Shown one piece after another: positions 9,759 to 45,360 of a stretch of 64,000 nt of DNA (the first letter of the stretch is position 1; each line of letters opens with the position of its first letter). The notes under the pieces were generated by a model. It made no database searches. It was not told the DNA's origin and saw nothing but the letters and a program-made list of their open reading frames with translations. Source of the stretch: Flavobacteriaceae bacterium (GTDB lineage Bacteria > Bacteroidota > Bacteroidia > Flavobacteriales > Flavobacteriaceae). The translations under genes and the position numbers were made by a program. Location: assembly GCA_947488595.1 (NCBI GenBank), contig CANKZI010000013.1, positions 1-64,000 of the forward strand, in the 5' to 3' direction.

Positions 9759-9789
9759 AAAACTTCCTAAAAATCAATTAGGAAGTTTT
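9759..9789 (-). terminator. Hairpin terminator downstream of DUF1573 gene
   Basis: AAAACTTCCTA ... TAGGAAGTTTT with A/T flanks. Confidence 0.7.
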
Positions 9790-9813
9790 ATGTTTTTTTA
9801 CAAATAATTAAGT

Positions 9814-10326
9814 TTAGCTTTTTGTAGGCTCTTCTTTTGCTGGAGCATTAGGATCTGGCTTAACAGTTCCTTTGATGGTCAAAACTTTTGGTGTTTCTGA
9901 AGCATTTGAAGTTACAGTTACATTTTTAGTAAAAGCACCCACTCTGTCCGTTGCATATTTTACGCCTATTACCGCTTTTCCACCAGGAGCAATTGGTTCT
10001 TTAGGCCAAGTTGGAACAGTACATCCGCATGAACCTTTGCAATCTGTGATAATTAAGGGTTTTGTACCCGTGTTTACTAATACAAACTCTCTTTTTCCAT
10101 CTGCGTTGTGTTCGATAATTCCGTAATCAATCGTTTCTTGTTCGAAAGTCATTCCGGCGCCATCGACTTTAACAGTTTCTAATTTTTTTAATGTTTCTAC
10201 TTCAGGGGCTTTAGTAACAACTCCTGTAGTCTTTGCTTTTGCAACTTTTGTTGTAGCTTCTTGCGCAAAAGCGCCTGATAATGACATCAATGCAATTGTC
10301 GAAAATAATAATAAACCTTTTTTCAT
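9814..10326 (-). CDS. DUF1573 domain-containing secreted protein
   Basis: Signal peptide; DYGIIEHNADGKREFVLVNTGTKPLIITDCKGSCGCTVPTWPKEPIAPG is typical DUF1573. Confidence 0.9.
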   Translation of the reverse strand: MKKGLLLFSTIALMSLSGAFAQEATTKVAKAKTTGVVTKAPEVETLKKLETVKVDGAGMTFEQETIDYGIIEHNADGKREFVLVNTGTKPLIITDCKGSCGCTVPTWPKEPIAPGGKAVIGVKYATDRVGAFTKNVTVTSNASETPKVLTIKGTVKPDPNAPAKEEPTKS

Positions 10327-10487
10327 TTTTGTAAAAATTAAATTTAAAGTCCAAATTTATAAATAATTACGATACATTAATATAGAATTGTCTTAAAATT
10401 AAATTAAAAATTTATCTTCAATAAATCACAGAGAAAATAATTAAATTCGCTGGAAAAAATTAATCACTAATTTTAAACAAATTTACC

Positions 10488-43660: not shown

Positions 43661-43940
43661 ATATATGATTTTAAAGATAAAAACGAATTTTTCAGTGTTT
43701 TATTTGGATTTTTTATTGGGCTTATCTTGCAATCTCTTTTGTTTTTTGCACTCAAACAGAATAGTTTTTACAATAATTTTAAATTTAGGATTTAATCAAA
43801 TTGTAGCATGAAAACCCTTTTTTTTTGTCAATTTTTTTGGTTTTCAGTTTTTTTCTTAAACAATTATTAATGAAATATAACTTTCTGTAAGCGAAGATAT
43901 AAGGCTTTTTATTAGCAAGTGGTAAAACTTATTAACAAAG

Positions 43941-43970
43941 TGGATTTTTGTGGAGAATAGTGGAGAATAT
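43941..43970 (+). promoter_or_regulatory. Putative MraZ-box array upstream of mraZ
   Basis: Three direct repeats TGGATTTTTG-TGGAGAATAG-TGGAGAATAT with an exact 10-bp period, immediately upstream of -7-like TACATTTG (43975-43982). Confidence 0.65.
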
Positions 43971-44009
43971 TTTTTACATTTGTTCTTGTACAAATAAAAA
44001 GTCAATCCA

Positions 44010-44477
44010 TTGCAAACCATTATCGGAACATATGAATGTAAAGTCGATGACAAAGGGCGGTTATTGTTACCGGCGCCTTTGAAAAAGCAATTGTCTTTGC
44101 AAGACGGTTTTGTATTGAAACGGGCAGTTTTTCAGCCATGTTTGGAATTGTATCCGATGGCTGAGTGGAATTTGATGATGGCAAAAATCAACAAACTCAA
44201 TCGTTTTGTTAAGAAAAATAATGACTTTATACGAAGATTTACTGCTGGTGTGAAAATTGTCGAAATAGACAATTTAGGCCGTTTGCTCATCGCTAAAGAT
44301 TTGGTGGCTTTTGCCAATATTTCAAAAGATCTGGTTTTGTCTTCGGCAGTCAATATCGTCGAAATTTGGGATAAAACATTGTACGAAAAAGCAATTGACG
44401 AAACAACAATAGACTTTGGCGATTTGGCCGAAGACGTAATGGGTGATATAAACGAAGACGGCAATGGAATATCATAA
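44010..44477 (+). CDS. mraZ: Division/cell wall cluster transcriptional regulator MraZ (TTG start)
   Basis: GTYECKVDDKGRLLLPAPLKKQL; first gene of dcw cluster. Confidence 0.95.
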   Translation: MQTIIGTYECKVDDKGRLLLPAPLKKQLSLQDGFVLKRAVFQPCLELYPMAEWNLMMAKINKLNRFVKKNNDFIRRFTAGVKIVEIDNLGRLLIAKDLVAFANISKDLVLSSAVNIVEIWDKTLYEKAIDETTIDFGDLAEDVMGDINEDGNGIS

Positions 44478-45360
44478 TCCGGTTTTACTAATGCAATCGG
44501 TGCAAGGTTTGAATATCAAGCCCGACGGAATTTATGTTGACGTTACTTTTGGTGGCGGTGGTCATTCACGCGAAATATTAAAAAAACTAGGGCCAAACGG
44601 TAAATTGTTTGCTTTCGACCAAGATGAAGATGCGTTGGAAAATGTGATAGAAGACGACAGATTTACGCTAATCAACGAAAATTTCAGGTTTATAAAAAGA
44701 TTTTTAAGGTTTTTTAATGTGCGTAATGTTGACGGAATTCTAGCCGATTTAGGCGTTTCATCGCACCAATTTGATGTTGCAGAACGGGGTTTTTCTACAC
44801 GTTTTGATGCCGAATTGGATATGCGAATGAGTCAAAGAAATGATCTGAATGCTTTTCGAGTTGTCAATGAGTACGACGAAGCGAACTTGAAAAGGGTTTT
44901 TCTTGACTATGGTGAATTAAAAAATGCACCCGCTATCGCAAGAGTGATTTTAGAAGCAAGAGCAATCACGCCGATTAAAAATACAGAACAGTTAAAAATA
45001 GTTTTAAGCCGATTTTTACCCGCTCATAAAAGCCATAAAATTTTGGCGCAAATGTACCAAGCCATTCGCATTGAAGTAAACCAAGAAATGGATGTTTTAA
45101 AAGAATTTTTAGAACAATCACTTGATATTTTAAATGCAAACGGACGATTAAGCGTGATTTCGTACCATTCTCTAGAAGACCGGTTGGTAAAAAGATACAT
45201 CAAAAACGGTCTTTTTGAAGGTGAACCTGAACGTGATTTTTATGGCAATTTTTCGGTTCCCTTTAAAACAATCGGAAAATTAATTGTTCCTGATAACAAC
45301 GAAATAAAAATAAACAATAGAGCAAGAAGCGCCAAATTGCGCATTGCTGAGAAAGTCTGA
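44464..45360 (+). CDS. rsmH: 16S rRNA (cytosine(1402)-N(4))-methyltransferase
   Basis: EYHNPVLLMQSVQGLNIKPDGIYVDVTFGGGGHSREIL; ISYHSLEDRLVKRYIK. Confidence 0.97.
   Translation: MEYHNPVLLMQSVQGLNIKPDGIYVDVTFGGGGHSREILKKLGPNGKLFAFDQDEDALENVIEDDRFTLINENFRFIKRFLRFFNVRNVDGILADLGVSSHQFDVAERGFSTRFDAELDMRMSQRNDLNAFRVVNEYDEANLKRVFLDYGELKNAPAIARVILEARAITPIKNTEQLKIVLSRFLPAHKSHKILAQMYQAIRIEVNQEMDVLKEFLEQSLDILNANGRLSVISYHSLEDRLVKRYIKNGLFEGEPERDFYGNFSVPFKTIGKLIVPDNNEIKINNRARSAKLRIAEKV

Follow-up and report, generated by a model that had tools for sequence, protein, structure and literature searches.

The mraZ promoter in the analyzed window, a 64,000-nucleotide stretch of DNA from a Flavobacteriaceae bacterium, contains four GTGG-type direct repeats that very probably represent the MraZ operator at the promoter of the dcw cluster. 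This prediction is based on conservation of the repeats specifically at 10-bp spacing, on their absence upstream of rsmH in genomes that lack MraZ, and on the same layout in E. coli. Within the array lies a second conserved element, a 9-mer resembling the DnaA box, which we favor, albeit modestly, as a candidate DnaA site.

The repeat array and the downstream gene cluster

Direct reading of the window sequence placed TGGA at 43941, 43951, and 43961, exactly as claimed in the original prediction of three repeats in 10-bp steps, and the TAnnTTTG-type −7 element that had been claimed 3' of the array was found at 43975–43982 (forward strand; TACATTTG). The repeat unit had been given as TGGAN; the repeats are real, but G always precedes TGG, making the actual unit GTGGA (forward strand; box 2, 43940–43944; box 3, 43950–43954; box 4, 43960–43964). 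The three-box array was likewise correct but incomplete: another box, GTGGT (box 1; 43919–43923, forward strand), lies 21 bp 5' of the first one listed, so that the window array consists of four boxes spaced by 21, 10, and 10 bp. Boxes 2 and 4 were identified from the sequence together with conservation across loci. The slot of box 3 is occupied by GTGGT in all 80 Flavobacterium-type loci and that of box 1 by GTGGT or GTGGG in 76 of the 80; box 1 is missing from many other Flavobacteriaceae. In its general form, the repeat unit is GTGGN5 with a 10-bp period; the genus consensus is GTGGT, from which the GTGGA of the window departs locally. The E. coli-like geometry that had been proposed holds for the unit and the period. 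The substitution of TGGA for TGGG does not hold as a rule for the phylum and was discarded, given that the Flavobacteriaceae consensus is GTGGT and GTGGA is rare.

The array is followed by mraZ (44010–44477, forward strand). Its product, the presumed ligand of the boxes, scored above the curated cut-offs of PF02381 (E = 1.3e-25) and, just barely, TIGR00242 (99.2 bits vs a cut-off of 98.35), contains two D-x-x-G-R motifs, matching the family pattern of two repeats with the DxxxR motif, and is 30% identical to E. coli MraZ. The first codon of the gene is TTG (44010–44012), and TTG was found at the match start in 74 of the 80 Flavobacterium-type loci (L002–L081); this conserved rare start may hold MraZ translation low. 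The next dcw gene, rsmH (mraW; 44464–45360, forward strand), overlaps the 3' end of mraZ by 14 bases (44464–44477), which suggests translational coupling. Downstream are an FtsL-like gene and then pbp, murE, mraY, murD, ftsW, and murG, the genes from pbp onward being named by reading their translations rather than by family search.

Conservation and phasing of the boxes across Bacteroidota

Conservation was analyzed upstream of 290 mraZ loci from the phylum, in each of which the MraZ ORF was located with a purpose-built profile; the primary count included GTGGD boxes at exactly 10-bp spacing within 350 bp 5' of mraZ. Three or more such boxes were found in every one of the 80 Flavobacterium-type loci, in 52 of the 63 from other Flavobacteriaceae, and in 44 of the 146 from other Bacteroidota; the corresponding counts for two or more are 80/80, 61/63, and 109/146. 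Control spacings of 6 to 9 and 11 to 15 bp yielded no triples in any of these groups, and the opposite strand yielded none in Flavobacterium-type loci, none in other Flavobacteriaceae, and one in other Bacteroidota. Many distant Bacteroidota have just two perfect boxes. When any GTG core was counted in family f4 (GTGGG-N5-GTGTT-N5-GTGTC), three boxes were present in 33 of its 34 loci. When each family was taken as a group and the genus and the window as separate ones, at least one locus with two or more in-register boxes was found in 53 of the 57 groups. Within the genus, the triple is present in 97 of 101 genomes, almost always once in each, compared to 2 matches in total for the reversed-pattern control. 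An alternative to the primary count of 80/80 loci gives 77/79 for Flavobacterium; it drops duplicates and employs a 200-bp window and a slightly different definition. The check for conservation upstream of orthologous mraZ genes that accompanied the original prediction thus did not refute it: nearly all Flavobacteriaceae have the phased array, as does most of the phylum, with two to four boxes.

Genomes without MraZ include all nine sampled from family f24 (G027, G059, G086, G101, G105, G113, G136, G144, and G232) and a few others, among them the complete Flavobacteriaceae genome G318 as well as G190 and G250 from f10. In these genomes, rsmH was kept and the loss of mraZ affects whole lineages. 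Within 1,500 bp upstream of the 14 rsmH loci of MraZ-less genomes, three boxes were found in none and two boxes in one; across these loci, the presence of the array tracks the presence of MraZ. The positive control was E. coli K-12 (NC_000913), which, when read in the same way, yielded GTGGG-N5-GTGGG-N5-GTGGG directly 5' of mraZ. The specificity for spacing and strand, the loss along with MraZ, and the unit and period shared with the E. coli operator all support the candidate MraZ boxes.

Promoter geometry and predicted autorepression

TAnnTTTG occupies positions −12 to −5 in the F. psychrophilum TSS map (PMC9723704), the main text of which does not mention mraZ; assuming the same placement for the window element, transcription is predicted to start near 43987. 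Relative to this predicted start, box 1 begins at −68 and boxes 2 to 4 at about −47, −37, and −27; boxes 3 and 4, which together span about −37 to −23, lie on either side of the −33 region. In 131 of the 132 Flavobacteriaceae loci with the triple, the distance from the first base of box 4 to the first base of TAnnTTTG is 15–16 bp. A different arrangement was found in families f23, f34, and f16, where the boxes directly follow a TTGAC-type promoter. In f23 (e.g., L087, L094, L099, and L103), they lie just 3' of a strongly conserved TTGACA-like/TACATT promoter, in contrast to their upstream position in Flavobacteriaceae, so that the predicted operator is shifted relative to the promoter. Because bound MraZ would overlap the core promoter in Flavobacteriaceae and in f23, f34, and f16 alike, repression fits both arrangements.

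In solved relatives, MraZ is a ring-shaped oligomer of the AbrB fold. At the window promoter, several GTGGD boxes spaced by a helical turn would present the same face of the DNA to MraZ: boxes 2 to 4 follow one another every 10 bp, and box 1 lies a further two turns (21 bp) upstream. Given the placement of boxes 3 and 4 around the −33 region, MraZ binding should block RNA polymerase and would thereby repress mraZ-rsmH-ftsL-pbp-mur and the genes beyond, closing a negative feedback loop. We infer both the binding of MraZ at the boxes and autorepression of the dcw cluster from the sequence comparisons; the E. coli protein is known to repress the cluster to which its gene belongs (PMC8475190).

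It is very unlikely that MraZ binds the array for activation or some other tuning of the dcw cluster: the boxes are indeed located upstream of the −7 element here and downstream of the −10 element in E. coli and Burkholderia, but boxes 3 and 4 lie over the −33 region, the E. coli protein represses, and in the characterized cases the operator overlaps the core promoter region. The probability that the array is a chance repeat or a low-complexity artefact of the AT-rich intergenic region is negligible, considering that the triple TGGA-N6 pattern has 1 match in the 64-kb window vs 0 in 100 shuffles and 1 match in the entire 2.4-Mb genome vs 0 for the reversed pattern, and that the array is kept phylum-wide.

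A second conserved element next to the boxes

All 80 Flavobacterium-type loci have the same sequence, AAACTTATYAACAA, in the interval separating boxes 1 and 2, with a single C/T site as the only difference. The DnaA-box-like 9-mer TTATTAACA (TTWTNMACA; 43929–43937, forward strand), just 5' of box 2, is present in all 80 of these loci with C/T at position 5 as the sole variation and is conserved as well as the boxes. Among other Flavobacteriaceae, 55 of the 63 loci (47 + 8), including loci without box 1, have the 9-mer at −11/−12 relative to the first intact box; in f2, it lies 10 bp further out, and the slot of box 2 has decayed. Its retention without box 1 and the 10-bp shift in f2 indicate an element of its own that is held in fixed register, and its positions are mostly −11, −21, or −31 from the first box.

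The same slot in related Bacteroidia contains canonical TTATCCACA or TTATTCACA (f51, f52, and f61), TTTTCCACA (f7), or A-variants (f53–f55, f57, f58, and f6), and both A and C at position 6 are present within f3; this comparison across families, made by searching for TTWTNMACA, was not blind, the DnaA consensus being known during the search. Unselected column counts (slot −31 from the last box) gave the same letters for both Flavobacteriaceae and f2; in the order of f6 and f7, some families of which have an additional box slot, the columns were more mixed. In f3, f4, and f11, the 9-mer is on the opposite strand; the f4 version, TTWTCCACA, is located about 25–37 bp before the array, often with extra copies of TTATCCACA upstream. 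In the −125 to −40 interval, strict TTWTNCACA was found in 27/34 f4 loci vs 1.9 in shuffles, which stand as the control for this family; the reversed-pattern control is invalid here, as it picks up the local GTGTT boxes. For the order of f6 and f7, the corresponding counts are 11/31 vs 0.9 in shuffles for the strict site and 29/31 vs 2.5 for either variant. Outside the class (f12–f50), no enrichment was detected (7 vs 5.2 expected). In f5, f8, and f9, MraZ boxes are present but the 9-mer is missing.

Two f4 genomes (L163/L367 and L373) have clusters of canonical DnaA boxes at the mraZ promoter, three on one strand and one on the other. In G017, the mraZ promoter contains the only triple TTWTNCACA cluster in the genome (G017:C1:1319134–1319169).

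The candidate DnaA site and alternative readings of the 9-mer

The degenerate form of the DnaA box is TTWTNCACA. The window 9-mer has A instead of C at position 6 and is therefore not classed as a member of this family. Compared with the DnaA box TTATCCACA (PMC8203912), the 9-mer agrees at all positions except position 6 in Flavobacteriaceae and agrees exactly in sister families. Because position 6 is always A in Flavobacteriaceae, not the consensus C, we only lean toward our preferred reading, a candidate DnaA site beside the predicted MraZ operator. DnaA bound at the 9-mer, in helical register with the boxes, would make this promoter a combined control point for DnaA and MraZ. The broader scenario, in which DnaA and MraZ are positioned side by side in one operator throughout the class Bacteroidia and jointly set the division genes, with the Flavobacteriaceae DnaA site now fixed as TTATYAACA and probably of low affinity or altered specificity, is plausible, though slightly less likely than not.

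The dnaA promoters of Flavobacteriaceae have TTRTNCACA, with C at position 6. In loci L321–L350, this conserved motif, mostly TTGTTCACA, is found about 110–130 bp 5' of the conserved dnaA N-terminus; it is a possible DnaA autoregulation site and is ambiguous as a native DnaA box because it may overlap the −7 element. An oriC from which the native DnaA box could be read was not identified by cluster searches in ten genomes: triple clusters of TTATNMACA produced two matches, one coding and one not recognizable as an origin, and no cluster of canonical sites was found in the 19-kb regions around dnaA. A genome-wide count in G000 showed no enrichment of CTTATYAACA (20 matches vs 27 for the reversed control). 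In L411, an AT-rich intergenic stretch of ~690 bp after an rplS-like gene (9780–10470) contains four TTWTNAACA sites in 300 bp and could be a candidate origin.

The 9-mer beside the MraZ operator could instead belong to an unrelated third regulator, with TTWTNMACA bound by a Bacteroidia factor other than DnaA. The invariant A at position 6 in Flavobacterium-type loci, which suggests that this letter is held by selection rather than resulting from drift away from the DnaA consensus, is compatible with such a factor, as is the C retained at that position in the dnaA promoters of the same family. Nevertheless, we consider this reading somewhat unlikely, given the exact TTATCCACA, TTATTCACA, and TTTTCCACA in the same slot of sister families, the presence of both letters within f3, and the canonical three-site cluster at mraZ in G017. 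A purely structural or promoter function of the 9-mer (UP-element, bend, or spacer of boxes 1 and 2) with no separate regulator is clearly unlikely: the same letters are kept where box 1 is lost, the 9-mer is on the opposite strand in several families (f3, f4, and f11), and C at position 8, W at position 3, and any base at position 5 make up the pattern of the DnaA box, although the A/T-richness of the 9-mer and its position between about −58 and −50 relative to the predicted start are in line with such a role.

Implications for replication and division

As far as the literature searched goes (mostly outside subscription papers), MraZ operators have been worked out in few bacteria, all outside Bacteroidota, and no report of MraZ operators or boxes, or of a DnaA box combined with mraZ, in this phylum was found. 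The boxes alone are of an already known type; what is new is their arrangement as a set of four (21/10/10) across the −33 region, together with the DnaA-like site attached to them. The phylum-wide set provides a clean definition of the box (GTGGD, 10 bp) together with natural deletions, and in the class Bacteroidia, the predicted boxes usually adjoin a fixed DnaA-like second site. If the preferred reading of this site as a DnaA site is true, cell division would be tied to DNA replication via a shared operator. We infer such coupling of replication and division from the promoter sequences, and the two-site operator, kept over many families, would be a direct and simple place to test this link.

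Comparison with known systems

The MraZ operator of E. coli Pmra consists of three TGGGN/GTGGG direct repeats (Eraso et al. 2014, as cited in PMC8475190). The window array resembles it in the 5-bp G-rich box, the 10-bp period, the location on the mraZ strand, and the position directly 5' of mraZ at the head of the dcw cluster. The window boxes are GTGGT/GTGGA as opposed to GTGGG and cover the −33 region, on the upstream side of the −7 element, whereas the E. coli boxes are located between the promoter and the gene. Furthermore, unlike the E. coli operator, the window array has a fourth box 21 bp upstream, and the TTATYAACA element is adjacent to it, with none seen in E. coli.

The MraZ box of Mollicutes, as summarized in PMC8475190 (Fisunov et al. 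2016), consists of AAAGTG[T/G] repeats. The Mollicute boxes, as described there, share with the window array the GTG core, the organization in direct repeats 5' of mraZ, and a single site per genome (M. genitalium) and differ in the 5' context of the box, the flanking element, and the class of organisms. The MraZ site of Burkholderia cenocepacia includes four 7-nt repeats separated by 3-nt spacers and overlaps the start site (PMC7761207). The GTG core, the 10-bp period, the four repeats, and the overlap with the core promoter are all common to the two arrays, but the Burkholderia site is located downstream of the −10 element, over the start, and neither the 21-bp gap nor a DnaA-like insert is reported there.

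For the second element, the relevant precedent is B. subtilis, where DnaA is bound in vivo at the ftsL promoter region (Goranov et al. 2005, as cited in PMC8203912). Whereas B. subtilis binding, as cited there, is known from in vivo ChIP and the site described here is a sequence match alone, with A at position 6 in Flavobacteriaceae, the two would have in common a replication initiator at the promoter region of an operon that includes division proteins.
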